Positions 7,298 to 52,503 of a stretch of DNA of 64,000 nucleotides are shown here, piece by piece (within the stretch, counting starts at the first letter, position 1; each line of letters begins with the position of its first letter). The position numbers were made by a program, and so were the translations under genes. The notes beneath the pieces are model-generated. The model made no database searches. It saw only the letters and a list, made by a program, of their open reading frames with translations, and had not been told where the DNA came from. Source of the stretch: Streptomyces sp. TLI_053 (GTDB taxonomy: Bacteria > Actinomycetota > Actinomycetes > Streptomycetales > Streptomycetaceae); assembly GCF_900105395.1 (NCBI RefSeq), contig NZ_LT629775.1:1-64000 (forward strand). The letters are read 5' to 3'.

Positions 7298-9364
7298 GTG
7301 GACCACAAGGTCAGCGGCCTTCCATGCAACTCCACCGCCGGTAAAACGGACGAGGCGCACCGGGTCTCCGGGCAGGCCGGGCGGCCGTGGGCGGCGATCC
7401 TGGACAACGCGCGGATTCCGTGTGACCGCAGGTTGTTCATGACGGCCACGCCGCGGTTGTGGGCGGTGAAGGAGACGGATCGGCTGCGGGCGGCGGCGGC
7501 CGGGATCGAGTCGGCCGAGCTGATCGCCTCCATGGACGACGAGGCGCTGTTCGGGCCCGTCGCCCACGACTACCCGCTCGGGACGGCGATCTCGGACGGG
7601 GTGATCGCGCCGTACCGGATCGTGTGCGTGGACGTCTCGGACCCTGTGCTGCAGGGCCTGGAGCAGCGCGGTGCGCACGAGATGTCGGTGGAGTACAGGG
7701 GAGCCCGGCTGGCGGCCCTGCAGACCGCTCTGCTGACCGCGTGCGCGGAGTGGGACCTGAGCCGGGTGCTGTCCTTCCACCACATGGTGGCCGAGGCGAG
7801 GGCGCTGAGCACCGGCCTTGGCGATGTCGCCCGGGTGCTGTGGGAGCAGGACCCCGCGCTGCACCCGAACCCGGCACTGGTCGGCACGAGCTGGCTGGAG
7901 GCCGAGCACACCTCCGCCGAGCGGCGGGCCGTGCTGGGCACGTTCGCCTCGCTGGTCAGGGACGACGGGTGGCGGCTGCTGCGGTACGTCCTGGCCTCGG
8001 TCAAGGTCTTGAGCGAGGGCGTGGACACCTTCGACTGCGACGCGGTGTTCTTCGCCGACGTACGCGGCTCCATGGTCGACCTAGTCCAGGCCGTCGGCCG
8101 GGCCCTGCGGATGCACCCGGGCAGCGGCAAGGTCGCCACGATCGTCGTGCCGGTGCTGCTCGGGGCCGGCGAGAACGGCGACCAGCTGCTCACCTCGAAG
8201 GCATACGACGGGCTGTCCAAGCTGCTCATGGCGCTGCGGGCGCACGACGCGGCCGCCGTCGAGCGCCTGGCCCTGCCGCAGTCCGAGACCCGGCCGCCGA
8301 GGGAGCCGAAGCATGCCGGGGAGCCGGAGGAGCGCCGCTCAGCTGCCGGGGAGGCGCAGCTGCTGCAGTTCTCCACCCAGCGCGACCCGGCGGTGATCGC
8401 GGCGTTCATCCGCACCCGGGTCTTGGAGCCGGAGCGGGCCGAGTTCCGACGGGGCCTGGAGGAGCTGCGCGCCTACCGGAAGACGTTCGGCGACGTGAAG
8501 GTGCCCTACGCTTACGCCGCGCCGTCCGGGCACCGGCTCGGGGTGTGGGTGGCCGACCAGCGCCGCTACAAGGCCGCCGACGTCCTCGGCCCGGAGCGGG
8601 TTAAGGAGCTGGACGAGCTCGGGATGGCGTGGTCCGCGTTCGACACCGCCTTCACCGACAACCTCACCGTGGTCGCCGGGTACGCGGCCGAGCACGGGCA
8701 CGCCTGCCCGCCCAACGAGGCCGTCTGGGGTGGGCGGCCGGTCGGCACCATCATGAAGAACCTGCGCACCGCCCAGCGGCGCACCGAAGCCCTCCAGCGC
8801 CGTGCCGAGGCCGGTGAGACCGGCCTCGACTGGACCGGCACGCTGACCGCCGAACGCAAGGCCGCCCTCGACGCCATCGACCCGGCCTGGTGCCCGGCCG
8901 GGTGGCCGGTGGACTGGCACCGCGCCTTCACCCTGTCCTGGCGCCACATCAAGGCCGGCGGCACGCTCGCCGGGGCCGAACCGGGCAGCATCGTCGTCCA
9001 GGGCGAGGACCTCGCCAGATGGGCCCGCGCCCAGCAGATCGGCTGGGACAAGCTCAACACCGCCCAGCAGTGGGCCCTGGAACACGTCCTCGGCCTCGAG
9101 CCCCTGCCCGCCGAGCAGAAGCCGGCGGGAAAGGTGAGCCACGCGGAGAAGGAGGCCCGCAACCTCGCCGCCGCCGCCCAGTACCGGGCCCGCGAGGGCC
9201 ACCTGAACGTCCCCCGCAAGCACAAAGAGACCCTGGAGCTGGACGACGGCACCACGGCGCAGATCAGCCTCGGCCTGTTCATCGCCAACAGCCGCAGCCG
9301 CCGCGCCGACATCCCCACCGCCCGCGCCGCACGCCTCACCCAACTCGGCATCCGCTGGCAATAA
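7298..9364 (+). pseudogene. 5'-truncated DEAD/DEAH helicase with helicase-associated repeats
   Basis: The open frame starts inside a superfamily 2 helicase. The first recognisable motif is DEAHR (residues 18-22), then LFMTATPRLW (motif III), the C-terminal RecA lobe ending in VDLVQAVGRALRMHPG (motif VI), then at least two helicase-associated repeats (residues 380-460 and 620-688). Walker A and the first roughly 250 residues are absent, and the upstream 150 bases do not encode them in any frame. The junction lies near 7335. Proteins of this class are common near Streptomyces replicon ends. It may be a recombination scar; a functional short product is unlikely without motif I. Confidence 0.75.
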
Positions 9365-40181: not shown

Positions 40182-40955
40182 TCAGAAGTCCCGCATGGTG
40201 CTGTCGAGGCGACTCATGATCCAGCGGATGAGTTTCTTGTCGAGCGCGATACCCGCATTCCGGGCCATCTCGTCGCGTGCGTGGTAGGTGACGTTGGCCC
40301 AGCTGCGGAAGTTGCCGTGGCAGACATAGTCGTCGGTGTACATGATCAGGTCGTTGTCCGCTTGCTCCCACAGGGGGTGGAAGGCGGGGATGTGGGTGAG
40401 CACGTCGGCCGGTGTGAGGGGGCGGAACTGCTCCCAGTCGTGGATGCGCGAGGCCAGGGCGCGGCGGTCCCTGAGTTTCTTGTGGGTGCTGTCGGCGCCG
40501 ACGAATACGAGGGGCCGCTGGGTCCGGTCCCAGAGGGTGCGCAGGTATTCGAAGGCTGTGGCGCTGAGGTGTTGGGCTTCGTCGCACAGCAGGACGTTCG
40601 GGGTGTCGGCCAGGGTGTGGACGAGGCGTTCGTAGGGGACCTCGGGGGGCAGTTCGAGGGCCTGGGCGAGGGCGGTGTGGATGTCGCCGTTCTTCATGCC
40701 CAGGTGGACCTGCAGGCGGATGGTGGTGTCGGGGGCGAGTTCGCGCAGGGTGGCGTGGACGGCGAAGGTCTTGCCGAGGCCGACGTCGCCGTGGATGCCC
40801 ATCATGGCGCGGGCTGCGATGACCTTCTCCAGTTGCATCGCGACCCTGCGGGCCGCGTCGGTGGCGACGGCCCGGGCTTCGGGCAGGCGCAGGTAGTGGT
40901 CGTCCTGCGGGCGGGGCAGCAGGCCGGGGCGCGCGGTGGGCCGGTGATCGTTCAC
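40182..40955 (-). CDS. TnsC/TniB/MuB-type AAA+ transposition ATPase
   Basis: 257 residues from GTG 40955, overlapping the transposase stop (GTGA). Walker A is GDVGLGKT (56-63), Walker B is VLLCDEAQHL (121-130), then RPLVFVGADST as sensor 1. Its small size is close to the compact TnsC proteins and MuB/IstB. These proteins coat target DNA and activate the transposase; in CRISPR-associated transposons they link Cascade-TniQ to TnsB. It is the last gene of an operon that also encodes a whole type I-E Cascade. Confidence 0.85.
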   Translation of the reverse strand: MNDHRPTARPGLLPRPQDDHYLRLPEARAVATDAARRVAMQLEKVIAARAMMGIHGDVGLGKTFAVHATLRELAPDTTIRLQVHLGMKNGDIHTALAQALELPPEVPYERLVHTLADTPNVLLCDEAQHLSATAFEYLRTLWDRTQRPLVFVGADSTHKKLRDRRALASRIHDWEQFRPLTPADVLTHIPAFHPLWEQADNDLIMYTDDYVCHGNFRSWANVTYHARDEMARNAGIALDKKLIRWIMSRLDSTMRDF

Positions 40956-42544
40956 GTGTCCTCGTTGCTCTCGGGGTCGGTGGCCGGGTGTGCGGTCGGC
41001 TTGTTGCCGAGCGGGGTGGTCCAGTGGGCGGACGGTTGGGGCAGTGGGATGTAGTCGGGCAGGGCTTCGCCGGCCGTGTCGTGGGCGTTGAGTTCGCGCA
41101 GTTCGCGGGTGGCTTCCTGGTGGGTGATGGTGAGCAGGTGCCTGGGCGGGGCGGGCTGGGTGAGTGCGGCGAAGCGTTCGTTCCTGCTCTTCTCTGCGTC
41201 GCGGAGGCGGGATCGCAGGCGGTCGGCTTCGCGTGAGCGGGCGTTGAGGAGCGCGCGGACTTCCTTGGGGGTGGCCTGGTCGGCGGGTCGGGCCTGGCCG
41301 AGGTGTCGACCGGTGGCGGCGTCGTAGAGTTCGATCTCGTCCTCGTGGTGGGGCATGTAGCGCAGGTGGACCTTGCGGCCGACCTGGGTGGTGGGGGTGT
41401 GCATCCAGGGGGCGGTGTAGTCGCGGTTGCGCCATCGCACGCCGGCCGGGTGGATGGTCAGTGCGTTGCCGTGGCGGGCGAGGGTGAAGGTGTGCACGTC
41501 GGTGGGGCTGACGTCCCAGACCGGGGAGAGGTCTTCGTTCCATGCCTGGGCGGGGGTGCGCCCGCCCATGGTGGGGATGGTGTGCTCGGTGTTCCAGCGG
41601 GTGACCCATTCGCGCAGCATGAGGACGAAGGACTCCAGGGTGAGCAGGTGTTCCGGTTCCTTGTTCTTGCGTCGTGGGGCGGCGGGGTCGTGGGTGTAGC
41701 CGGGCAGGCCCTTGAAGAGCATGTCCTTGACGGCGCCGTTGACGGCTTCGACGTGGGGTTTGAGGTCGGGGCGCCGGGGCGGCAGTCTGACCAGTTCGAC
41801 ACCGAAGGCCGCGAGGGCCTGGCCGACCGCGTTGGAAAGGAAGTCCTTTCCGCCGTCCACGCGGACGCGGCCGGGCAGGCCGCCGAAGGGGCCGTGGCCC
41901 GGGGTGCGCAGCAGGGCGTCGCGCAGGGCGAGGAGGATGCTTTCGCTGCTTCCGTACTGGGGGCTGACGGCGAGTCCGCAGATGGCGTTGGTGGCGGCGT
42001 CGACGAACCAGGTGATCCAGGGCTTGCGGACGATGCGGTTGTCGATGACGACGCGGACGCTGGCTTCGACGTGGTCGGTCTCCCAGTACTGGTTGCGGTG
42101 GCCGCGGGGGCGGGTGCCGTGGAGGTCGTGGCGGCGGCGGGCTTGTTCGCCGCCGGCCAGGCCTGCGCGTTGGCCTTTGGGGATGTCGTGTTCGACGGCG
42201 CGGTAGAAGGTGGCCCGGGAGGGCAGGGGTGGTGTGTCTTGGGGGGTTTCGTCGCGGAGTTCCTGGTAGGCGGCGGCGACGTTGCCGCGGTGGCGGGCGA
42301 TGGCGGTGTGCATGTCGGGGGTGAGGGTGAAGCGGTCGCGGGTGGTGGGGGTGTAGTGGCCGTGGTGGGTGCGGGCGTTGGCGATCCAGCGGTGGACGGT
42401 GCGGGGGGTGACGCCGAAGGTGGCGGCGGTGAGGCTGATGTGGGTGGCGGTGAGTTGGCCTTCGGCGTGCAGGTGCAGGAGGCGGCGTACGCCGGCTGCG
42501 CGCAGTTCGGTGGTGCTCGGCTCGGGCGGGAGTGGTGGGTTCAT
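40952..42544 (-). CDS. Mu/Tn7 (TnsB)-type DDE transposase
   Basis: 530 residues. N-terminal helix-turn-helix region (ISLTAATFGVTPRTVHRWIA) and a second DNA-binding segment. The retroviral-integrase catalytic core has Asp157 (YWETDHVE), Asp230 (RVRVDGGKDF) and Glu266 (LKPHVEAVNG), a perfect DD(35)E. A Mu-type beta-barrel C-terminal domain follows (VHTFTLARHGNALTIH, RKVHLRYMPHHEDEIELYD). It starts 27 bases after the cas6e stop and overlaps the AAA+ gene. No tnsA-like endonuclease gene is adjacent, which would favour replicative (cointegrate) transposition unless another nuclease acts. Confidence 0.9.
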   Translation of the reverse strand: MNPPLPPEPSTTELRAAGVRRLLHLHAEGQLTATHISLTAATFGVTPRTVHRWIANARTHHGHYTPTTRDRFTLTPDMHTAIARHRGNVAAAYQELRDETPQDTPPLPSRATFYRAVEHDIPKGQRAGLAGGEQARRRHDLHGTRPRGHRNQYWETDHVEASVRVVIDNRIVRKPWITWFVDAATNAICGLAVSPQYGSSESILLALRDALLRTPGHGPFGGLPGRVRVDGGKDFLSNAVGQALAAFGVELVRLPPRRPDLKPHVEAVNGAVKDMLFKGLPGYTHDPAAPRRKNKEPEHLLTLESFVLMLREWVTRWNTEHTIPTMGGRTPAQAWNEDLSPVWDVSPTDVHTFTLARHGNALTIHPAGVRWRNRDYTAPWMHTPTTQVGRKVHLRYMPHHEDEIELYDAATGRHLGQARPADQATPKEVRALLNARSREADRLRSRLRDAEKSRNERFAALTQPAPPRHLLTITHQEATRELRELNAHDTAGEALPDYIPLPQPSAHWTTPLGNKPTAHPATDPESNEDT

Positions 42545-42571
42545 GGCGGTTTCCGGTGGGGGGTCGGGTGG

Positions 42572-43210
42572 TCAGGCAGGGGCGAGGGTGAGCAGGCCGG
42601 CGCCGTGGGCCTTGCCGCGTCCGATGCCGTGGGTGAGGGCGGTGTGCAGGAGGGCGGGGTCGGTGATCAGGGCGGTGCCGTCGAAGCGGGTGAGGCTGTG
42701 GTGGGGGCCGGGGGTGGTGTAGTCGCGGCGGAAGCGCAGGCGGGTGGCGGTGGTGGTGCGGATGTCGAGGCCTGCGTGGGTGGCTTTGCGGCGCCACCAG
42801 GCGAGGGCGTCGTCGCCGTGCAGGGCGGTGAGGGTGCCGCGTTTGGCAGTGCCGTTGCGGACCTGTTCGGTCATGCGGTGTGCGACGGGGTTGGCGGTGA
42901 TGCGGTAGTGGACGGGCAGGCCGGGGGTGAGGGCGTTGAGCATGGGGGTGAGGTCTTTGGTGGTGCAGGTGCCGTAGCCGTTGGGCAGGGCGCTCAGGTC
43001 GGGGTGTACGGCGGTCTGGACGAGCAGGGTCGGGGTGTTGTCCTCGTCGAGGCGGAAGAGCAGGCCGGCGTCCTTGCGGGGGGTGGGTCCGGTGCGTTCG
43101 GGGATGAGGCGCATGAGGGTCTTGTGGAGGCTGTCGGCGGCCCTCAGGTCGGCGCGGGCGGCGTTGTGGTGCGGGTTGAGGCGGATGAGGGTCAGGGTGT
43201 GGGCGGCCAT
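42572..43210 (-). CDS. cas6e: Cas6e (CasE) CRISPR RNA endoribonuclease
   Basis: 212 residues from ATG 43210. The N-terminal ferredoxin-like domain carries the conserved His29 (LHKTLMRLIPE). The middle has PVHYRITANPVAHRM, and the C-terminal glycine-rich loop is GIGRGKAHGAGLLTLAP. It cuts pre-crRNA within the repeat and stays bound in Cascade. It overlaps the cas5e end by 19 bases, and the transposase gene follows directly. Confidence 0.93.
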   Translation of the reverse strand: MAAHTLTLIRLNPHHNAARADLRAADSLHKTLMRLIPERTGPTPRKDAGLLFRLDEDNTPTLLVQTAVHPDLSALPNGYGTCTTKDLTPMLNALTPGLPVHYRITANPVAHRMTEQVRNGTAKRGTLTALHGDDALAWWRRKATHAGLDIRTTTATRLRFRRDYTTPGPHHSLTRFDGTALITDPALLHTALTHGIGRGKAHGAGLLTLAPA

Positions 43211-43995
43211 GCGGGGTCCTTGTGGAGGTAGGCGGTGAGAGTGTCGATGGGGCGTTTTCCGGCGTACAGGTGGGCGGGGAGGTGTTCGGTGGTGCGCCAC
43301 AGGGGGCGGGCGAGGTAGGTGCGGTGTTCGGTGCGCCAGTCGGTGGGTTCGGCGGCGAGTTCGTTGTCGGGAGAGGTGTGGGGGTGGTCGGTGGGGGGTG
43401 TTTCCGACCAGAGGATGACGGGTGCGGTGGGGCCGGTGGGGGGTGTGGGCCAGCTGACGGGGGCGCGGGTGAGGAGTTCGGTGATCGGGTCGGGCAGGGG
43501 CGGGCCGAGGACGAGGGGTTCGTCGGGGATGCAGGCGCGGCGGCCGAGGAAGGGCGCGTGGGCGGGGTTGTCGAGGGCGTCGGCGATGTCGTCGATGAGC
43601 GGGTCGGGGCCGGTGACGGCGACGGTGAAGACGGCGCCGGCCAGGTAGTGGCGGCGGGAGACGAGTGTGGCTGCCTGGGCTGTGCGCTTGCTGCCGTTGG
43701 CCAGGTACAGGCGTTTGTCGGGCGGGTGGCCGCCGCCGACGGTGTGGTAGTCCTCGTGGGGAGTGCCGGGGTTGTCGACGCGGACGGTGAAGGTCAGGTC
43801 GTGGTGGCTGGGCCGGCCGGGCAGCTGCTCGTAGGGGGTGAGGGCGTTGTCGCGGGTGCGGCCCTGGGCGGCGGTGATCAGGCCGATGAGGCCGGAGCGG
43901 GTGGGGTGAAGGGCGGTGTCGCGGTGGTGCGGGAAGGCCGCGTGCTGGCCCCAGGCCTGCCACACGCCGGCCAGGCGCAGCAGCAGGCCGCTCAT
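43192..43995 (-). CDS. cas5e: Cas5e (CasD) Cascade subunit
   Basis: 267 residues. The typical opening SGLLLRLAGVWQAWGQ is followed by TRSGLIGLITAAQGR, then YHTVGGGHPPDKRLYLANGS with VSRRHYLAGAVFTVAV. It binds the 5' handle of crRNA. The start overlaps the cas7 stop by 4 bases (ATGA). A longer-than-usual variable loop occupies residues 175-225. Confidence 0.93.
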   Translation of the reverse strand: MSGLLLRLAGVWQAWGQHAAFPHHRDTALHPTRSGLIGLITAAQGRTRDNALTPYEQLPGRPSHHDLTFTVRVDNPGTPHEDYHTVGGGHPPDKRLYLANGSKRTAQAATLVSRRHYLAGAVFTVAVTGPDPLIDDIADALDNPAHAPFLGRRACIPDEPLVLGPPLPDPITELLTRAPVSWPTPPTGPTAPVILWSETPPTDHPHTSPDNELAAEPTDWRTEHRTYLARPLWRTTEHLPAHLYAGKRPIDTLTAYLHKDPAWPPTP

Positions 43996-45146
43996 GCGGT
44001 GTCCCGGGTGTGGGGGTAGGCGGTGGCGGTGACGGCGGCGGTGAGGTGCTCGAAGGAGGGGTGGTGGGTGCCCAGTTCGGTGATGGGGGTGTCGAGGGTG
44101 CCGGCGTGGCCGTGGGCGTGGCGGTGGCGGGTGCCGATGAGGCGGTCGACGGCGGTGGCGTAGGAGGCGAGTGCGTCGCGGGCGGGTTGGGTGTAGCCGC
44201 CGCGGGGGTGGGCGGTGACGGGTTGTTCGAAGGCGGCGCTGTAGGAGACGGGTCGGCGTTCGCGGATCGTGTAGTGGACGAGGTCGGGCAGGCTGTGGTG
44301 GGCGGTGGCGGTCTTCTTGGCCTGGGGCAGGGTCATGAGGTAGGCGTCGGTGAATGCGGTGAGCACGCGGCGGGCGCGGTCGATGTCGGCGTTCAGGTTG
44401 TCGAGCAGGCCGGTGAGGTTGACGGTCGCGTAGCGGTAGAACAGGCCGGTGGTGAGGAAGGCGGTCTGCAGGTGGGCGCTGCCGCTTTCGCCGGGCCGGG
44501 GCCAGTCCTCGACACTGGTGAAGTAGTCCGGCTGGAGGTCGGCCTTGTGGACGGTGAAGGCGGGGGCCATCTGCAGGGCTGCTTCGACATGGGCGTCGGG
44601 CAGTTCGGCGTGCATGCGGCCCAGCAGGGCGATGCTGTCGGTGCGGCGGGTGAGGATTCCGGCGATCTTCTTGGTGGGCAGCAGGGCTTTCAGGGCGGGT
44701 TTCTTGGTGGCCGCGGTGTAGTCGGTGTGGCCGTCCTCAAGGGCGGTGCGGTGGTCGGTGCACAGGTCGGCGAGGGCGTCGGTGATGTCGGCGGGCACGT
44801 AGGCCAGTGCGAGGGTGCGGCCGTTGTTGGCGGGGTCGGTCTTGAGGCCGCCGGTGGTGGCGCTGCGGGCGACCTGGGCGCCGGCGAAGGCGGCGAGGTC
44901 GGCGGGCCAGCCCCGGGCGAGCAGGTGTTCGGCGAGGACGGCGGGCAGTTGGCGGGTGCGGGCGGCGGGTTCCTTGAGTTCTTCCTCGATGTCGAGGCGG
45001 ATGACGCGTTTCCATGCTTGGCTGGAGACCATGGCGCGGGTGGTGTTGCCGACGTCGATGGTCTTCGGTTCCTGGGCGTCGTTGCGGTTGAGGTTGGCGG
45101 CGGGGACGGCCTGCAGGACGTGCAGGTCGAGGAAGCGGTGGCGCAT
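43992..45146 (-). CDS. cas7e: Cas7e (CasC/Cse4) Cascade backbone subunit
   Basis: 384 residues, opening HRFLDLHVLQAVPAANLNRN and then PKTIDVGNTTRAMVSSQAWK, the conserved RNA-binding N-terminus. Later FLTTGLFYRYATVNLTGLLD and RPVSYSAAFEQPV are typical. Multiple copies coat the crRNA. It overlaps the cse2 stop by one base (TGATG). Fully intact. Confidence 0.94.
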   Translation of the reverse strand: MRHRFLDLHVLQAVPAANLNRNDAQEPKTIDVGNTTRAMVSSQAWKRVIRLDIEEELKEPAARTRQLPAVLAEHLLARGWPADLAAFAGAQVARSATTGGLKTDPANNGRTLALAYVPADITDALADLCTDHRTALEDGHTDYTAATKKPALKALLPTKKIAGILTRRTDSIALLGRMHAELPDAHVEAALQMAPAFTVHKADLQPDYFTSVEDWPRPGESGSAHLQTAFLTTGLFYRYATVNLTGLLDNLNADIDRARRVLTAFTDAYLMTLPQAKKTATAHHSLPDLVHYTIRERRPVSYSAAFEQPVTAHPRGGYTQPARDALASYATAVDRLIGTRHRHAHGHAGTLDTPITELGTHHPSFEHLTAAVTATAYPHTRDTA

Positions 45147-45742
45147 CAGGTCGGGTCCTTCACGGTGTCGAGGCGCAGGTAGAAGTTGTCGAGCCAGCGG
45201 GTGCCGACCTGCCCGGCGGTGTGGGCGCGCACGGCCAGGTCGTCCAGCAGGACGGCCCAGTCGGGGCGCAGCCCTGCGGCGGCGAGGCGTTCGGCGAGGG
45301 CGGGCAGACGGCGGTGGGTCTGGTCCTCGCCCAGACGCACGAGGACCTTGAGGTCGTCCTCGGTGCGGCCGGGGTTGAAGCCGTGGTCGCGGGCTGCGGT
45401 GGCCAGGGTCGTCCCGAGGTCGGGGCGCCGGCGCCACGCGGGGGTCCGGTAGGGGTCCTCCCCCGTGTCCGCGGCGGGGGTGGTGTTCTCGTCGAAGGGG
45501 TCGGTAGCCGCGGGGACGGTGGGGGTGGTCAGGGCGATGAGGGCGGCGACGGTGTAGTGGGCGCGGCGTGCCCCGTGGCCGCGGGTGAGGCGGCTGAGGT
45601 GGGGTGTCAGGTCGAGGCAGTCCTCGACGGGCCTGCCCCGGCCTCTCTTCAGGACGGCGCGGATGCCGGGCCGGGTGCACAGGGCAGCGATGTCGGTGAC
45701 GAAGTCCTGGCAGTGGCGGCGGTGCTCGGGTGCGGTGGCCAT
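45146..45742 (-). CDS. cse2: Cse2 (CasB, Cas11e) Cascade small subunit
   Basis: 198 residues from ATG 45742, coupled to cse1 by TGATG. All-helical, with CTRPGIRAVLKRGRGRPVED near the start and DDLAVRAHTAGQVGTRWLDN, FYLRLD near the end, which match the Cse2 pattern. Stabilises the R-loop. Confidence 0.9.
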   Translation of the reverse strand: MATAPEHRRHCQDFVTDIAALCTRPGIRAVLKRGRGRPVEDCLDLTPHLSRLTRGHGARRAHYTVAALIALTTPTVPAATDPFDENTTPAADTGEDPYRTPAWRRRPDLGTTLATAARDHGFNPGRTEDDLKVLVRLGEDQTHRRLPALAERLAAAGLRPDWAVLLDDLAVRAHTAGQVGTRWLDNFYLRLDTVKDPT

Positions 45743-47310
45743 CAGCTCCCCTTGGGCAGGCGGGCGCCGGCGAGGCGCAGCGTGGTCGTGGCGGTGGTGC
45801 GGGCTCGGGCGGCTGCTCTGTGCTGGATCACGGCGCTGTCGGTGGCCTGGCGCAGGGCGGTGATCGCGTCGTGGGCGAAGGCGGGGCCCACCGGGTGGTC
45901 GGTGTCGTGCAGCAGGCGCCAGAACGTCTTCTCCGCGAGTGGCCAGTACGCGGCGCCGGCGCGCTCGGCCCAGCGGCTCCTGCGTGCGGGTCGGCTGCTC
46001 CTGTTGGCGCCGGGCGGGGTGGTGGTGTCCTTCCATGCCTGGTTGGCGGCCCTGGTCAGAGCGTGCGCGATGTCTTCGGCGGTGCGGCAGCAGTCGGCGA
46101 TGCGCTGGGCGCGCCCGGGGTCGTTCTCCTGGGCCCAGGCGAGCAGTGGTGGGGTCAGCGCGGTGTACCAGCCGTAGTCGACGCACTGGTGGTCCTGGTG
46201 GAAGCCGTGGACCCGTACGCGCAAGGTGTCGCGGACGGTGGCGGGGAGGTCGTTGAGGGTGTCGAAGACCTGTGGCCTGCGGGTGCGGGCGCTCTCGTCG
46301 GGGGCCAGCAGCAGTGCTTCCAGTTCCCGCCACCAGGCCCGTCCGGTGTCCGCCCGGCGCGCTGTGCAGCGTTTTTCGGGGTCCTTGGCGGTGGGGTTCA
46401 GCTGCAGGACGACGTAGGGGTCGAGGGCCGTGGGTTTGGGGTGGCGAGTGGCCCAGGCCAGGTGCGCGTCGGTGACGGTGGTGCCGTCGGGGCCGGGGAC
46501 GAGCAGGAGCGCGTGGCGGGAGCGGCCGGTGAGCAGCCGGCCCGGCCAGGTGACCGGGGCCGGCGGGGCCATCGGGTCCGGCAGGTCCTCTTCCTCCCAC
46601 GGGCTCAGGTCGACGGCGGGGTGGTAGTCGCCGTGGAACGCCGGTATGCCCGCCAGGAGGGTTTCGTACAGGGTGCGGCCCAGCGGGTGGAAGGAGACGG
46701 TGCCGCGCAGCGGTGCGCTGGTGAGTTTGTTGTTGCGGTAGGTGCCGACCGTGCGGGGTTTAGCGGCGCCGGAGCGTCCGTAGAAGTGGTGGAGCAGTAG
46801 GTGCTGGACGGCCTCGGCCGTGGGGAGGGGGTGGGGTGCGGCGTCGGTGTGGGGGCCGAACCAGGCGAAGTTGTTTCCCGTGGCGCGGCCGAGGACGAGG
46901 GTGTTGATGCCGGCCGGGTCGCTCTGGTGGGCCAGTCGCGGGTCCTGCAGCCAGGGGCGCTCGGGGTGGAAGGCGTCGAGGCGGTGCTCGTGCCGGTCGA
47001 AGTAGGCGTGGACCTCCTTCGGATCGAAGCGGTCGGTGTTCTCGAGCAGGTCACGGCGCAGCCGGTTCCACCGCGACGCGCTCAGGTCGGTGTCGTCCAG
47101 GGCGCAGATACGGGCCGCGATGGCGCTCGCCACGCGCAGGACCGCGGAGGCAACGGGCGGGATCGCGAACGCCAGGTCGTCGAACTCGTGCGCGCGCAGG
47201 AGGAGTTCACGCAGTCCGACGTGCTCGTAGGCGGTGCGGGTGCGCACCGGGATCCAGGGCCGGTCGGCGACACTGAAGGACGGCGGATCGGGGGCGGCGG
47301 TGCTGGACAC
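45742..47310 (-). CDS. cse1: Cse1 (CasA, Cas8e) large subunit
   Basis: 522 residues from GTG 47310 (GGAG 9 bases upstream; the frame runs on to 47520 but that leader is non-coding in character). It opens SFSVADRPWIPVRT, then GLRELLLRAHEFDDL, NNFAWFGPHTDAAPHPL, LHHFYGRSGAAKPRTVGTYR. The C-terminal four-helix bundle ends AHALTRAANQAWKD...FWRLLHDTD. It recognises the PAM and recruits Cas3. It is the first gene of the cse1-cse2-cas7-cas5-cas6-transposase-AAA operon. Confidence 0.93.
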   Translation of the reverse strand: MSSTAAPDPPSFSVADRPWIPVRTRTAYEHVGLRELLLRAHEFDDLAFAIPPVASAVLRVASAIAARICALDDTDLSASRWNRLRRDLLENTDRFDPKEVHAYFDRHEHRLDAFHPERPWLQDPRLAHQSDPAGINTLVLGRATGNNFAWFGPHTDAAPHPLPTAEAVQHLLLHHFYGRSGAAKPRTVGTYRNNKLTSAPLRGTVSFHPLGRTLYETLLAGIPAFHGDYHPAVDLSPWEEEDLPDPMAPPAPVTWPGRLLTGRSRHALLLVPGPDGTTVTDAHLAWATRHPKPTALDPYVVLQLNPTAKDPEKRCTARRADTGRAWWRELEALLLAPDESARTRRPQVFDTLNDLPATVRDTLRVRVHGFHQDHQCVDYGWYTALTPPLLAWAQENDPGRAQRIADCCRTAEDIAHALTRAANQAWKDTTTPPGANRSSRPARRSRWAERAGAAYWPLAEKTFWRLLHDTDHPVGPAFAHDAITALRQATDSAVIQHRAAARARTTATTTLRLAGARLPKGS

Positions 47311-47868
47311 GGGACGGCTCCACAGGTCGGCGCGGGGGCGCGGCAGGAGAGGTGGACAGGGGTGGAGTGTGCGGGCGGCGCACCGCCGGGGACGCATGCG
47401 CGGCACGCGCCGGGAGGGGGGCGGCGGGCATCCCCACACCGAGACGCATACCCGGCCGCCGTCACCGCTCGGCACGGGGCGTGCGACGCAAGTGCGGTAT
47501 CCGAAGCAGGCGGAACACATCCATCGCTACTGCTGATATTTCGTCAGATCTGTTCTGCAGCAAGGGAACAGTGAGGATTTCCGGTCGTGCTCCGGCTCGA
47601 CTGTGCCCGCTGCGCCAGCCAACCACGGCCCTCCCGGCAATGCACAACCGGTGAGAATTATGTGACTTACAGTCGTCATATGGGGTAAGGTGTCCCGTTC
47701 ACGGCGCCCAGGCACCCGCCCCATGCCGGTCACACCGTCGTGCACGCCGCGCGGGCGCGGCCCGGACACGGGTCCGGGTCCCACTCCTCCTTCCCCCGGC
47801 GCTGCGGCGCACCGCGGGCCGGCGCTCCCGTCGGGTTCGAGGCCACGTCGAACAAGGACCGGCCCCGG
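47311..47868 (-). promoter_or_regulatory. Cascade operon leader between cas3 and cse1
   Basis: This 558-base interval holds no supported gene. Its middle (about 47520-47700) is clearly AT-richer than the surroundings and includes GAGAATTATGTGACTTACAG and GATATTTCGTCAGATCTG. It is likely the operon promoter, and possibly a transposon-end or regulatory site. I saw no cas1, cas2 or array here. Confidence 0.5.
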
Positions 47869-50766
47869 TCAGTCCCGTTCGCGGACCAGGCCGAGTTCGG
47901 GGTCGATCCGCATCCGACTGTCCCCGAACCGGTGGAAGCCCTCGCCGGGCAGCAGCACGATGTCGGCGAGCAGCGGATGGTCGCGCCAGGCGGGCGGGGC
48001 GGCGTTGGACACGGGCACGTGCGGGATCCAGGCGCGTGGGGCCGGCAGGGTGCGCTGCAGGATCGCGCGTACCTGCGCGGCAGTGGGCCGGCCGGTCACG
48101 GGCAGTGGGTGCTCCCCGGCCGCGTCCAGCGTCAGGCTCCGGCTTCCCGGTCGGTGGTGGCACGGGAGAAGTCGCCTGGGCAGGACTCCGGGGCGGGTGA
48201 CGGCCTGGGCGGCGGTCAGGTGCTGGCGGTGCAGGTCGGCCAGGGAGGAGACCCTCGCGGGCGGCGGCACGAGCTGGCGGGCACTCAGGTGCTCCTGGGC
48301 ACCGACGGCCGCCATGTACCCGGCCAGCCGCTGCTCGAGGTCCCAGGTGGCGCGGTGGAAGGTGGAGGGGGCGCCGTGGACGGCCTCGAGGAGTTCTTGG
48401 ACGCGGCCGGGGATCTCGATGTCCTCCTGTCCGAGGTCCTGCAGCAGGGCCGCGGTCTCGTGCAGGAGGAAGGCCGGCTCGAGCGGGCGCCAGTGTGGCG
48501 GGATCGACGTCTTGCCGTCCGCGTTCGTCGGTACGAGGACGGTCAGGCGGGCGACGAGGCCGCGCAGCCACGCGGCCCGCCGGTCCCCCGTGCCGCGCCA
48601 GGCGAGCTCGAAGCGGCGCAGCCGCCCCGCCAGTTGCAGGAGCCGGGCCAGCGCGGCGAGGTCGGCGACCATCTCGTCCAGGTCCAGGTTCAGGCCCAGC
48701 TCCAGCACGCTGGTTGCCACCACGATCATCCGCCGCGGGCGCGGGCCGGCGGGTCCCAGTGCGGCCCGCACCCGGGCGGTGACCTCCTGGCGACGGTCGG
48801 CGGGCAGGCGGGCGTGCAGCAGCACCACGTCCCCGGCCGCGTGCGGCCAGGCGTCCTTCAGATGCAGGTAGGTCGCCTGGGCGTCGGCCGTGCTCGCCCT
48901 GACCACCGCGGCGCAGCCGCCGTGCTCGGCGAAGGGCGCCAGCAGCGAGGCGGCCGCGTCCAGGTGCGTCGGCGCGGCGGGCCCGTCCGAGGTGCGGGCC
49001 CGGCCCCAGAGCGGCACCCGGCACTCCTCGAAGCGGACGGTGCGGGTGTGCTCGCGGATGTGGCGCCGCCTGGGTTCCTCGTCCATCCGATGCGGGACCC
49101 CGGTGGCGCTGTCGGCGAACAGCCAGCCCGGGTAGGCTGGCGTGTACACGAATTGCTCGAGCGCGCGCCGCGACAGGCCGGTGCCCGCGAGGTAGGCGCG
49201 TACCAGCGCGTCGCACCGGCTGGCGGGCAGGGTGGCCGACAACAGGACCACCGGACTGCCCAGGCCCCCCAACCAGGCGAGCAGACGGCGCAGCTGCAGC
49301 TCGCTGAACGGCTCAAGGGCATGGGCCTCGTCGACGACGACGGTGCGCCCCGACAGGGCCAGCAGGCGCAGCGCGTTGTGGCGCACGGGCTGGACGGCCA
49401 TGAGTGCCTGGTCGACGGTGGCGACCGTGAACTGGGCCAGCAGTCCCTGCTCCCACCCCGCCGACCGTCTCTCCGCCGCACCGGCCGGCGCCTGCCCCTG
49501 CCGCCCGTGGCCGGCCTCGGCGCCGATACCTCCGGGGTGGTCGTCGCGGGCCCCGTCAGTGTCCGCGTCGTCCGTCACCACCCCCTCGACGGCGGCGATC
49601 CGGCGATCGGTGAACGCGGCACTGTGCCAGCCGTGGCTGTGCACCAGGCCGACCTCCGTACCCTCGAGGCGGTGCGCCCGCACCCACTTCCGGACCGTGT
49701 CGAAGGCGGCGTCCGCCAGTGCCGTCGTCGGGGTCAGCCAGCACACCCCACTGGTGCCGCAGGCCTCGTTCAGGACCCGCGTCGCCTCCAGGGCGGTGAC
49801 GCTCTTGCCCGTCCCCGTCGCGTCGGTCACCACCAGGATCCCCGCCCGCCCGGAGCCGGCAAGCAGCGGCAACCGCGCCATCACCGACGCCTGCAGCGCG
49901 TTCGGTTCCTCCAGCCCGTGCGCCACCTCGAACGGCAGCCCGGGCACCGCCACCCGCCCAAGGCCCGAGTCGGCCACCACCTCCCTCGCCGTCCCCCTGG
50001 ACCAGGCGAAATGCTCCCGCGCGCCGTAGGCGGGAGCATGCGCCCGCCCCAGCCACACCGCTCGACGGCTCGCCAGCCGGTCCGCGACCGTCCCCAGCCC
50101 GCAGATCACCACCGCCGCCTCCACCGACACCCGCCCCGGCACCTGCCCCGCCCCGGTCAGATGCCGCAGCTGCGCCACGTAGCGCCGGCGCAGCTCCTGC
50201 CACAACGACCCCCCGAGAGCCGCCCTCACCCGAGCTCCCGCGGCCGCGCCCGACAGGTCCACCTGCAGGAACCGGCCATGGTGACCACCGGCGATCTGCG
50301 CCACCCGCACCCCCGGCGCGTCGTTGCCCGACACGTCGTAGCCCAGCTCCTCCAAGAGGCCGGCCAGCAGGTGCATCGACGCCCGGTCGTGCGGGACGTG
50401 CACCAACCGGCCCGCGTCCTCCCGCAGCTCCTCCCCCAATCGCATCCACCCCGCCGGGACCGAGTGCTGCCACCACGGCGTCAGCTTCCCGATGTCGTGC
50501 AACGAGGCGAAGAACGCCGTCAACGACCGTGCCGCCGCCCCGTCCACACCCAGCCCGTCGGCGATCAACTCCCTCTGTCTCCTGGTGAGGAAGCGGTCCC
50601 ACAGCTCCAACGTGATCGCCGCGGTGTCCAGCAGATGGAAGAGCAGCCCGTAGAACACCCCGTCGGCGCTGTCCGACTTCCCCCACGGCTGCAACGACAG
50701 CCCACCGAAACGGCCCTCCGCCACCACATCGGACGCCCCCGACCCGACCGGCACCCGCTCACCCAC
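47869..50766 (-). CDS. cas3: Cas3 nuclease-helicase, type I-E
   Basis: About 965 residues from GTG 50766 (GTG 50727 is also possible; the frame extends to 51858 but similarity begins near LSLQPWGKSD). HD nuclease: FHLLDTAAIT, LHDIGKLTPWWQ, the HLLAGLL His, and GGHHGRF. Helicase: Walker A DATGTGKS, DEAHALEP (motif II), LLSATLP (motif III), and motif VI LLQLAGRLRRFE, where the usual QRxGR first Arg is Leu. A C-terminal domain completes it. It unwinds and degrades target DNA after Cascade binding. It is divergent from the CRISPR-like repeats and is separated from cse1 by 558 bases. Most CRISPR-associated transposons lack it. Confidence 0.9.
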   Translation of the reverse strand: MGERVPVGSGASDVVAEGRFGGLSLQPWGKSDSADGVFYGLLFHLLDTAAITLELWDRFLTRRQRELIADGLGVDGAAARSLTAFFASLHDIGKLTPWWQHSVPAGWMRLGEELREDAGRLVHVPHDRASMHLLAGLLEELGYDVSGNDAPGVRVAQIAGGHHGRFLQVDLSGAAAGARVRAALGGSLWQELRRRYVAQLRHLTGAGQVPGRVSVEAAVVICGLGTVADRLASRRAVWLGRAHAPAYGAREHFAWSRGTAREVVADSGLGRVAVPGLPFEVAHGLEEPNALQASVMARLPLLAGSGRAGILVVTDATGTGKSVTALEATRVLNEACGTSGVCWLTPTTALADAAFDTVRKWVRAHRLEGTEVGLVHSHGWHSAAFTDRRIAAVEGVVTDDADTDGARDDHPGGIGAEAGHGRQGQAPAGAAERRSAGWEQGLLAQFTVATVDQALMAVQPVRHNALRLLALSGRTVVVDEAHALEPFSELQLRRLLAWLGGLGSPVVLLSATLPASRCDALVRAYLAGTGLSRRALEQFVYTPAYPGWLFADSATGVPHRMDEEPRRRHIREHTRTVRFEECRVPLWGRARTSDGPAAPTHLDAAASLLAPFAEHGGCAAVVRASTADAQATYLHLKDAWPHAAGDVVLLHARLPADRRQEVTARVRAALGPAGPRPRRMIVVATSVLELGLNLDLDEMVADLAALARLLQLAGRLRRFELAWRGTGDRRAAWLRGLVARLTVLVPTNADGKTSIPPHWRPLEPAFLLHETAALLQDLGQEDIEIPGRVQELLEAVHGAPSTFHRATWDLEQRLAGYMAAVGAQEHLSARQLVPPPARVSSLADLHRQHLTAAQAVTRPGVLPRRLLPCHHRPGSRSLTLDAAGEHPLPVTGRPTAAQVRAILQRTLPAPRAWIPHVPVSNAAPPAWRDHPLLADIVLLPGEGFHRFGDSRMRIDPELGLVRERD

Positions 50767-50906
50767 ACGCCCATGACCCACCCCCGCAGCCAACCACCAC
50801 CGCACCCCCGCCCCGGAGCGACAGGCCAGGCCATCCCCAACTTCCGCGAACCGACGCAGCACACCGAACGTCCTGGCTACAATGACGACCGGGCGACCCC
50901 CCTCAG

Positions 50907-51103
50907 GTCTCGGCGTAAGCCACGCTGACACGGCGATCCCAGCCGGAACGAACCTCGTCGAACCGTCCTCGCGCATGCGAGGCTGACACGCGCTCCTACC
51001 GCCGCCTGCTCTTCTACCTCGCCTCGTCCCCGCGCGCACGCAGGGCTGACACCGGCACCGACGGGGACCCGCTCCTTGTCCCCGCGCGTGCAGGGCTGGC
51101 CCC
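50907..51103 (+). CRISPR. Short degenerate CRISPR-like array (four repeat-like units)
   Basis: Four related units begin at 50907, 50965, 51026 and 51078: GTCTCGGCG..., GTCCTCGCGCATGCGAGG, GTCCCCGCGCGCACGCAGGG and GTCCCCGCGCGTGCAGGG. Each is followed by CTGACAC or, in the last, CTGGCCC. They resemble actinomycete type I-E repeats (GTCC-CCGCGC-x-GCGGGG-TGGTCC) with an internal hairpin. Unit spacing is 58, 61 and 52 bases, giving spacers of roughly 32, 33 and 24. Repeats differ much more than in a live array, and no leader is obvious, so it may be a relic or an atypical 'private' guide array. The strand is inferred from repeat orientation. Confidence 0.55.
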
Positions 51104-51105: not shown

Positions 51106-52503
51106 GGGCGTGTCAGCGACCTCGTGTAAGTCACTTGTGATCATTAGATGCTGAGCCGGTCCTCGAAGAACAGCGAGAACTGGTTCAGCGCCTCCTTCCA
51201 GTGTGCGGCGACGCGGTTGACGTCGCGTGCCCGGGGAGCGATCAGCTCCCGGACGGCGAGGTAGAGCACCTTCAACGCTGCCTGTTCGGAGGGGAAATGG
51301 CCGCGGTTGCGGGTAGCCTTCCGCAGCCGGGAGTTGATCGACTCGACCATGTTCGTGGAGTAGACGACCTTCCTTATCGCGGGCGGGAAGGCCAGGTAGG
51401 GCGTGAACTCGGGCCAGGCCCGCTGCCAGGTCTGGACGATCGCCGGATAGCGGGTGCCGAGATCGGAGGCGGCGAACTCCTCCAGCGCCTGTTCGGCGGC
51501 CTGCTCGGTCGCGGCCGTGTAGATAGCCTTCAGTGCCGGCACCAGCTTGGGGTGGTCCCGCTTGGACGCCAGCCTGAGAGACGCCCGGATCAGGTGGATC
51601 ACACACGTCTGGACCGTGGCGCGGGGCAAGGTCGCGGTCACCGCGTCGGGCAGGCCCTTGAGCCCGTCGCAGGCGACGATACAGACGTCCTCGACGCCGC
51701 GGTTGCGCAGTTCCGACAGCACCGCCATCCATGTGGTCGCGCCCTCGCCCTCGGAGCCGACCCACAGCCCCAGGACATCCTTTCGGCCGTCCATGTCGAC
51801 CCCGACCGCGAGGTAGACCGGCTTCGAACTCACCGCGCCGGAGCGGATCTTCACCCACAGCGCGTCGATGTAGATGATCGGCCAGACCGGGTCCAGCGGC
51901 CTGTTCTGCCAGGCGGTGAGTTCGTCGGTGACGGCGTCGGTGACCTTGCTGATCAGGTCCGGGCTGACCTCGACACCGTAGATGGCGGCCAAGTGGGAGC
52001 GGATGTCCCGCACGCTCATGCCGCGGGCGTACAGCGACAGGATCCGCTCGTTGAACCCCGCAAGCCGCCGCGCGTTCTTCGGCACCAGCAGCGGCTCGAA
52101 CTCTCCGTTGCGGTCCCTGGGCACCGCCACCGTCACCGCTCCGACATCGGTCAGCACCGTCTTCGGCGAGGTGCCGTTACGGCTGTTGCCCGAGCCCCGG
52201 CCGGCCACATCGTGCTTCTCGTAGCCCAGGTGCTCGGTCATCTCGGCCTCCAGCGCCCGTTCCAGCACGGCCCGGGTGATCTGGGTCAGCAGCCCACCCT
52301 CGCCCAGCAGGGCCGCCCCGGAGGCATCGGCGCGGTCCATCAACCGCTCGACGACCTCGTCCACCAAGTCGTCCCCGACCTGCTCGACGGCCGGGTTCTC
52401 GCTGTCAGTAGTCATGTCCGTCCGTTCCGGCCGGCCAAGACCCGAGGCCGAGCCTCGGCCAGCCTGTCACATCACGGACTTACACGATCTTTCGGACACG
52501 CTC
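51106..52503. mobile_element. IS256-family insertion sequence, complete
   Basis: 1398 bases, bounded by imperfect inverted repeats: GGGCGTGTC...TCGTGTAAGTC at the left and the complement GAGCGTGTC...TCGTGTAAGTC at the right, with a variable 7-base middle. It is flanked by an 8-bp target duplication, GGCCCCTG, and holds one transposase gene. Intact ends and a matching duplication indicate a recent insertion. Confidence 0.88.
51144..52415 (-). CDS. IS256-family transposase
   Basis: 423 residues. Typical N-terminus (LTQITRAVLERALEAEMTEH, LGYEKHD, NSRNGTSPKTVLT), DDE core with YIDALWVKIR, VGSEGEGATTWMAVLSELRN, VCIVACDGLKGLPDAV, the C/D(2)H-type TCVIHLIRASLR, and STNMVESINSRLRKATRNRG. Full length and uninterrupted. 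Confidence 0.95.
   Translation of the reverse strand: MTTDSENPAVEQVGDDLVDEVVERLMDRADASGAALLGEGGLLTQITRAVLERALEAEMTEHLGYEKHDVAGRGSGNSRNGTSPKTVLTDVGAVTVAVPRDRNGEFEPLLVPKNARRLAGFNERILSLYARGMSVRDIRSHLAAIYGVEVSPDLISKVTDAVTDELTAWQNRPLDPVWPIIYIDALWVKIRSGAVSSKPVYLAVGVDMDGRKDVLGLWVGSEGEGATTWMAVLSELRNRGVEDVCIVACDGLKGLPDAVTATLPRATVQTCVIHLIRASLRLASKRDHPKLVPALKAIYTAATEQAAEQALEEFAASDLGTRYPAIVQTWQRAWPEFTPYLAFPPAIRKVVYSTNMVESINSRLRKATRNRGHFPSEQAALKVLYLAVRELIAPRARDVNRVAAHWKEALNQFSLFFEDRLSI

Follow-up and report, generated by a model that had tools for sequence, protein, structure and literature searches.

The first 64,000 bases of the single 9,899,953-base contig of Streptomyces sp. TLI_053 (the window), and thus one end of the assembled chromosome, contain a minus-strand operon in the order cas3-cse1-cse2-cas7-cas5-cas6-transposase-AAA. 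With a probability of about 0.7, and judging from sequence comparison, this operon is the core of an I-E5-type transposon of chromosome ends associated with clustered regularly interspaced short palindromic repeats (a CRISPR-associated transposon, CAST). Its guides likely direct the element to genes close to the ends of other linear replicons, and the old end there would be replaced. The operon consists of:

40182..40955, minus strand: AAA+ ATPase, a TnsC/MuB-like partner by position (PF13401 AAA_22, 2.9e-16; Walker motifs intact)
40952..42544, minus strand: TnsB-like DDE transposase (PF09299, Mu-transpos_C, above and PF00665, rve, below the Pfam cut-off)
42572..43210, minus strand: cas6e, start inferred (PF08798, 3.6e-44; PADLOC Cas6e)
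43192..43995, minus strand: cas5e (PF09704, 1.1e-29; PADLOC Cas5e)
43992..45146, minus strand: cas7e (PF09344, 4e-85; PADLOC Cas7e)
45146..45742, minus strand: cse2, or cas11e (PF09485, 8.4e-11; PADLOC Cas11e, 3e-52)
45742..47520, minus strand: cse1, or cas8e, start uncertain (PF09481, 8.6e-67; PADLOC Cas8e)
47869..50892, minus strand: cas3, read as a frame stretch with its true start uncertain (PF18019, PF22590, PF18395; PADLOC Cas3e, 2.7e-129)

The operon, its relatives and the mobile unit

The reading frames of all eight genes are intact and each fits its named family in Pfam and PADLOC, the Cascade genes being of subtype I-E by the PADLOC models. An earlier note on this DNA had described a single tight operon of I-E Cascade, transposase and AAA gene with intact subunits and catalytic triad, and both descriptions are borne out. 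Open reading frame coordinates give TGATG junctions for cse1/cse2 and cse2/cas7, ATGA for cas7/cas5 and GTGA for transposase/AAA, where the GTG start of the ATPase gene overlaps the stop of the transposase gene; cas5 and cas6 overlap by 19 bp and a gap of 27 bp separates cas6 from the transposase. Across 35 aligned transposases, the DDE residues are conserved. By sequence, the HD motif of the window Cas3 is intact, as are its GTGKS and DEAH motifs and the GLGKT and DEAQ motifs of the AAA protein. The sole PADLOC match of the transposase is TnsB_0_V-K (2.6e-17), the TnsB of V-K CASTs, and the solved structures closest to it in sequence are TnsB chains (7svw, 4.9e-18); for the AAA+ ATPase, a sequence search at E 0.01 returned no solved relative. 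The transposase is present in a single copy in the whole genome. Rfam gave no match.

The earlier note had also remarked that Cas3 is retained and that TniQ is not visible. Pfam detects no TniQ among the operon genes, and the genome's sole TniQ match lies on the right arm, at 9,880,849. The claim that cas1 and cas2 are missing from the 64-kb window stands for cas1; cas2 was not searched for. A Cas1 gene elsewhere in the genome (9,787,481) adjoins an array with an unrelated repeat, and two more Cas1 pieces lie near 8.15 Mb.

Searches with the transposase gave matches at 1e-3 in 35 of 70 genomes from the genus, at 1e-60 in 87 of 394 from the family and at 1e-120 in 31 of 392 from another genus. 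A scan of genome contigs with the transposase found no relative, and phage records gave distant DDE matches only. The junction of cas6e, transposase and AAA gene, which the earlier note had suggested looking for, is indeed conserved: the 22 loci retrieved around plasmid hits or close relatives of the transposase include 13 that have the whole gene set or nearly all of it in the same order, at about 35-59% protein identity, and nine that show no Cascade gene. Within a first collection of 31 stretches, two of them from the TLI_053 genome itself, one, cut by a contig end, retained cas5-cas6-transposase-AAA. Many relatives are on linear plasmids or no more than tens of kilobases from a contig end; the G255 and G487 loci are mid-contig. 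Seven of the nine Cascade-free relatives (L097-L100, L102, L103, L105) carry a second AAA gene and a short piece like a transposase amino-terminus before the transposase, at the position of Cascade, possibly an alternative module for target choice.

As read from these sequences, the association of Cascade and transposase is old and, in this sample, single, since the Cascade-linked transposases form one clade (15 rows versus 20 without Cascade, support 100/100) and the pairwise distances of transposase and Cas7, a check on co-evolution that had been proposed, are correlated (r 0.94 over 14 loci, with 0 of 2000 shuffles as high). Subtelomeric regions presumably collect mobile genes, which favours the view that a defence operon and an unrelated transposon are neighbours by chance; set against the conserved order, the single clade and the correlated distances, we give this explanation next to no weight.

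Inner ends were discovered by reading one junction; tandem repeats right after the array, tried as transposon ends, had given nothing useful. Beyond the array, the relatives have a conserved inner end that reads TGCTGA, TGCGAC or a close variant, with two TTCTCAnnnnGnTGTCA-like sites 24 bp apart followed by inverted sites. Of 22 loci with cas3, 16 have it on the outer side of the array, each G694 arm being counted as a locus, and it is also present on the right arm of the TLI_053 genome. A telomeric transposon has one specific end, with the telomere as its other boundary. The earlier note held that its reading would fall if the transposase-AAA pair moved without Cascade, with transposon ends between cas6e and the transposase. 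This is not what is observed: in the tree, the Cascade-free transposases form a separate clade, and in the relatives no end is seen between cas6e and the transposase.

The clearest view of the unit comes from G694, which has the Cascade element on both arms. From TGCTGA onward, the 872 bp to cas3 are identical and the adjacent flanks are unrelated; the shared segment (99.4-99.7% identity) starts exactly at TGCTGA. The match between the arms spans all cas genes, the transposase and the AAA gene at 99.7% with 65 gap positions, the AAA gene of the right copy reading in two pieces, and on the right arm the shared segment reaches the contig end, 22.7 kb in total. The compared stretches contain one further match, of 228 bp, about 14 kb inside. 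In the relatives, then, Cascade, array, transposase and AAA gene are, on this sequence evidence, one inherited mobile unit bounded by a TG inner end. End-like site pairs 24 bp apart also occur between cas3 and cse1 in G255 and G206 (L092:15943-15983 and L114:495-535), where they perhaps allow the transposase to act as a regulator or, alternatively, represent an old inner end.

Insertion sites and what the guides match

Four of the 16 junctions with flanks cut genes of telomeric elements, with a gap of 0-2 bases: a transposase gene in G284 and G151, an AAA gene in the left copy of G694 (G694L) and a helicase gene with HA domains on the TLI_053 right arm. The stretch that G590 interrupts has a homologue in a 38-kb linear plasmid, where it includes the TniB and transposase genes of an element with TniQ. 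Uninterrupted homologues of the sites were obtained by search for BB111, G590, G464, the right copy of G694 (G694R), G203, G255 and G377, and from loci already in hand for the TLI_053 right arm, G151, G284 and G694L. The empty-site test covers these 11 elements and leaves out G206, G176, cadm, G245, G420 and G416; for the flanks of G206 and G176 there was no plasmid homologue reaching the junction. The G377 homologue, with 71-72% matches, makes for a weak test.

Two sites illustrate the pattern. In the comparison of BB1-1-1 with the uninterrupted plasmid of AM 4-1-1, the inner 6 kb of AM 4-1-1 match at 98.0% up to the junction; the next 6 kb outward have no near match in the BB1-1-1 record, the outermost 9 kb not being part of the comparison. 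A spacer of BB1-1-1 itself matches the lost side, 29/30 at +174. In TLI_053, the right-arm end interrupts an HA-helicase gene, and the guide is found in the window, in an array directly upstream of cas3:

50907..51102, plus strand: decayed CRISPR array with four diverged I-E-like repeats (spacings 58, 63 and 50) and three spacers
50991..51023, plus strand: spacer S2, which matches terminal HA-helicase genes at no more than 3 mismatches in the 394 genomes

In the six homologues that could be aligned, S2 matches the lost part of the helicase gene at +83, five times with 28/30 and once with 26/30; a seventh homologue could not be aligned.

For all 11 sites, the best match of an own spacer, of at least 23/30 and within 500 bp, was sought on the displaced and the retained side, on both strands and with reversed spacers as control. 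Seven of the 11 have such a match on the forward strand of the displaced side (BB111 29, TLI_053 28, G151 26, G590 25, G284 25, G464 24 and G203 24, out of 30), whereas the displaced reverse strand, the retained side and the reversed spacers each have 0/11. In five of the seven, random sets of other elements' spacers equalled the score in 0 of 200 draws. An AAN motif, read from the repeat registers, precedes the protospacer in six of the seven.

Homing guides of Tn7-like CASTs would give a spacer match on the retained flank. Candidates of this kind were rejected: sliding 30-mers over 600 bp in 10 elements gave best scores of 20-22 (control 19-23), and parsed spacers over 1 kb in 16 elements gave 18-22 (control 18-20), the highest being G176 with 22 versus 19. 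Mapping insertion sites against spacers, as the earlier note had recommended, is thus productive for the displaced side, and for the retained side it yields nothing clearly above control. The notion that the element carries a guide for its insertion site appears to hold in a modified form, for the displaced side only and at seven of 11 sites.

Several observations weigh against the reading of the operon as an end-replacing CAST. Each element was represented by one homologue, the best of several for G464, G203, G590 and G151; other homologues score 23 and 22 (G464), 22 (G203), 24 (G590) and 24, 24 and 25 (G151), and for G284 one of five homologues could be aligned. Random spacer sets equalled the score in 15 of 200 draws for G590, which also has no AAN motif before its match, and in 17 of 200 for G464. 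No match of at least 23/30 within 500 bp was found for G694L, G694R, G377 and G255; G255 has a match only at +483 (25/30), and for G694L three of five homologues give 22-24/30 on the other strand, roughly between +850 and +910. The distances from junction to protospacer (+70, +78, +83, +154, +174, +229 and +368) are not fixed, and in TLI_053 the left arm carries the guide but the right arm the insertion. The inner end was not found in six of the 22 loci, and a second boundary is not established: on the left arm of G694 the shared segment stops at 69,391 and another 69 kb lie outward of it, and BB1-1-1 continues for about 165 kb past the AAA gene. No telomere or terminal repeat was seen on the TLI_053 contig.

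When 100 spacers were compared with 1.23 Mb of fetched loci, 51 matches (at most 6 mismatches in 32) came from 11 spacers, and none from reversed spacers. Ten of the 11 were assigned to targets: one to a transposase, three to AAA genes and six to helicases with HA domains (PF03457), the terminal helicases for which we take ttrA to be the name. The assignment covers these ten spacers, those of the larger set below being assigned in part, and the searched loci were chosen around transposases, which favours transposase-near targets. Against 0.78 Mb of Cascade-free loci, 54 of 451 spacers match with at most 6 mismatches in 30, versus 2 reversed; this set (reduced from 469) omits G694R and spacers outside 30-40 nt. 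Restricted to bounded elements and the window, without the arrays of G123, G105, G172, G487, G523 and G599, which have no bounding end, the counts are 36 of 359 versus 2, and at five mismatches or fewer 21 versus 0. Some of the parsed 'spacers' of G123 resemble gene sequence. Control arrays beside Cas1 in related genomes (16 loci) gave 15/304 versus 8 reversed, and one each at five mismatches or fewer; their repeats are unrelated and they may be of other subtypes, making them a control for host rather than for subtype.

Spacer S2 has 42 matching places at 3 mismatches or fewer in 29 other genomes of the 394, with none for the backwards control, and within its own genome, at the same limit, it matches the array itself only. 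Among 25 targets checked, 24 lie inside an HA-helicase match and all 25 are immediately preceded by AAC, in keeping with the AAN motif that the cited part of PMC12231136 gives for the I-E system of S. avermitilis.

Spacers also recur between arrays. A loose all-versus-all comparison of flanks gave, among the matches listed, mostly CRISPR repeats, and the first sign of common spacers. A spacer on a DRGK-like transposase motif recurs in BB111, G245, G377, G206 and G284, which have differing repeats, and a second transposase motif is matched by a spacer common to G377, BB111 and G590. Near-identical spacers against conserved transposase and ATPase motifs occur in the arrays of BB111, G245, G377, G206, G284, G590, G464 and G599; adaptation genes were not seen in the operons of these eight despite the common spacers.

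Proposed mechanism and alternatives

In the mechanism that we propose, Cascade would bind a protospacer beside an AAN motif. The TnsB-like transposase and the AAA protein would then fuse the inner end with the target DNA at a distance of 70 to about 370 bp, on the motif-proximal side. Everything beyond the junction, the protospacer and the old telomere included, would be lost, and the element's own end would take over. Cas3 may assist if it opens the target, or breaks it, upstream of the motif; this would suit the variable junction distances, which make a Cas3-made break a possible entry point. Because the target would have been removed, the new host need not be cut by a working Cas3. The most specific form of this proposal, which we hold tentatively and at somewhat below even odds, is an RNA-guided telomere capture with self-erasing targets. 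In it, Cascade would work together with an active Cas3 to pick telomere-near genes of chromosomes and linear plasmids (a rival transposase, its ATPase or the terminal helicase), a single inner end would be joined motif-proximally, and the entire distal end would be replaced and the protospacer gone.

Cas3 moves toward the motif-proximal side. An alternative is that Cascade and Cas3 break the target at a point upstream of the motif and that the broken end is then joined to the inner end, with the transposase not directly aimed by Cascade. Junctions that are motif-proximal at a variable distance, and the presence of Cas3 in 22 of the 23 stretches taken for the end search (none was found in G465), are what such end capture would lead one to expect. 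The precise TG ends, however, point to joining by the transposase, and G151 fits the insertion pattern with an altered Cas3 (L089/L111), whose HD motif reads RE, the sole departure among 13 rows with data; this argues mildly against a need for the nuclease. We consider end capture of this kind unlikely.

Cascade and Cas3 could instead serve for defence or competition only, destroying rival telomeric elements and linear plasmids while the transposase inserts unaided, the guides simply matching enemies. The HD motif (preserved in 12 of 13 rows with data, that of the window among them), the assigned transposase, AAA and terminal-helicase targets, the absence of a self match of S2 outside its array and the near-control scores on the retained flank all suit this explanation. 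It does not predict an own spacer a few hundred bases from the element's own junction, on one strand and on the displaced side only, and we find it harder to credit than end capture at a Cas3 break.

Less probable still is the account of Faure 2019, as relayed in part by PMC12231136, in which tnsB and tnsC are likely an adaptation module of Streptomycetaceae I-E loci that have a CRISPR array and no cas1/cas2; taken as a substitute for spacer acquisition, spacers would be a by-product of insertion and not its cause. In its favour, the window has no cas1 and a Cas1 match at 1e-40 occurs in just 16 of 200 related genomes, yet the arrays are long and varied. The loci of that account, as far as they are described there, resemble ours in gene set (cas3-cas8e-cse2-cas7-cas5-cas6 with tnsB and tnsC) and in having an array. 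They differ in being described without terminal structures, on whose absence the account rests; the relatives analyzed here show an inner end in most loci and, in the G694 pair, mobility of the whole unit.

The window copy, known systems and significance

The window copy itself is probably not mobile on its own, since there is no inner end next to its array; none was found in the 13.3 kb upstream of cas3. The position expected for it is occupied by an insertion sequence:

51126..52487, no strand assigned: insertion sequence beyond the array (Mutator-family transposase at 51144-52415, PF00872)

The missing end is consistent with a loss next to this insertion sequence, in whose flanks a target-site duplication is not visible. 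Directly past this insertion sequence, which borders the element, lies a terpene synthase gene (PF19086, 52523-53662, minus strand). A stricter parse of the array retains three repeats. The right arm of the chromosome holds a remnant of end plus array, in which a similar repeat occurs three times, 61-62 bp apart (L060 12546-12690, about 7.3 kb from the contig end); a search with one window repeat as pattern, allowing 3 mismatches, hits the window only, the right-arm repeats differing by a gap of bases. The search of the flanks for transposon ends, which the earlier note had called for, succeeded in the relatives and not at the window copy. That note had missed the array, the chromosome-end setting, the missing inner end with its insertion sequence, and the aim of the guides at genes of replicon ends.

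Terminal inverted repeats between the window and the right 60 kb are limited to pieces of 131 and 133 bp. In the window, 7346-9358 (plus strand) resembles HA (terminal) helicases, aligning to homologue residues 157-854, and its start may be missing. On the right arm, the TniQ gene (L060:338-1342, about 9,880,300-9,881,300 of the genome) lies near a different TnsB-like transposase, perhaps as another Tn7-like element of the chromosome end; this transposase has a weak match (6 mismatches) to a recurrent guide. A 24%-identical transposase stretch lies at L127:17673-18284. A SMODS-domain nucleotidyltransferase gene (CBASS-like, L060:4515-5513) is located near the same chromosome end.

Arrangements of these genes already form a named class, I-E5, of which the window locus is a further member. 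The earlier note's candidate I-E CAST is upheld in that the Cascade genes go with a TnsB-like transposase and an AAA gene of their own and without TniQ; its newness is not, the arrangement having been described in 2019 and classed as I-E5. The primary paper on I-E5 is reportedly that of Hsieh et al. in Science, 2025. From the portion of PMC12669027 that deals with them, I-E5 CASTs lack TniQ-TnsD, are found with telomeric transposons and keep an active HD domain, with a dual function possible. The window shares with that description the type I-E effector genes, a Cas3 with HD motif, no TniQ/TnsD by the transposase and the replicon-end setting, and departs from it in lacking an inner end, where the insertion sequence lies, and in its decayed array.

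With the Tn7-like CASTs (I-F3, I-B2, I-C, I-D and V-K), the system has in common a TnsB-like DDE transposase, an AAA partner and, likely, an RNA-guided choice of target. A TniQ that links Cascade to TnsC, which defines that group, is absent from the window operon; in addition, Cas3 is kept, the junction is motif-proximal, the protospacer is lost and only one end was found. Known CASTs retain the protospacer and insert on the opposite side. A Mu-type transposase with a CRISPR effector is also the basis of CasMu-I and CasMu-V (PMC10910872), which, in the excerpted account, are of subtypes I-A and V with Cas3 lost or Cas12 inactive; the window has I-E genes and Cas3. The CasMuC adaptor, there found mainly with CasMu-I, has no counterpart in the window operon. 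No open paper was recognised as describing spacers that match displaced flanks, the primary I-E5 paper lying outside this scope, and we do not claim that the pattern is unpublished.

If telomere capture with self-erasing targets is correct, the geometry of this CAST would be opposite to that of known CASTs, the element would escape autoimmunity by erasing its own target, and CRISPR would be driving a war over the ownership of chromosome ends. This can be put as a testable question: does Cascade aim the insertion of a TniQ-less I-E CAST, to what side of the motif, and does Cas3 cut in the process? If guides do aim a single-ended insertion, this would be a natural RNA-guided swap of chromosome ends that retains a working Cas3, and such swapping would help explain why the ends of Streptomyces chromosomes differ from strain to strain.

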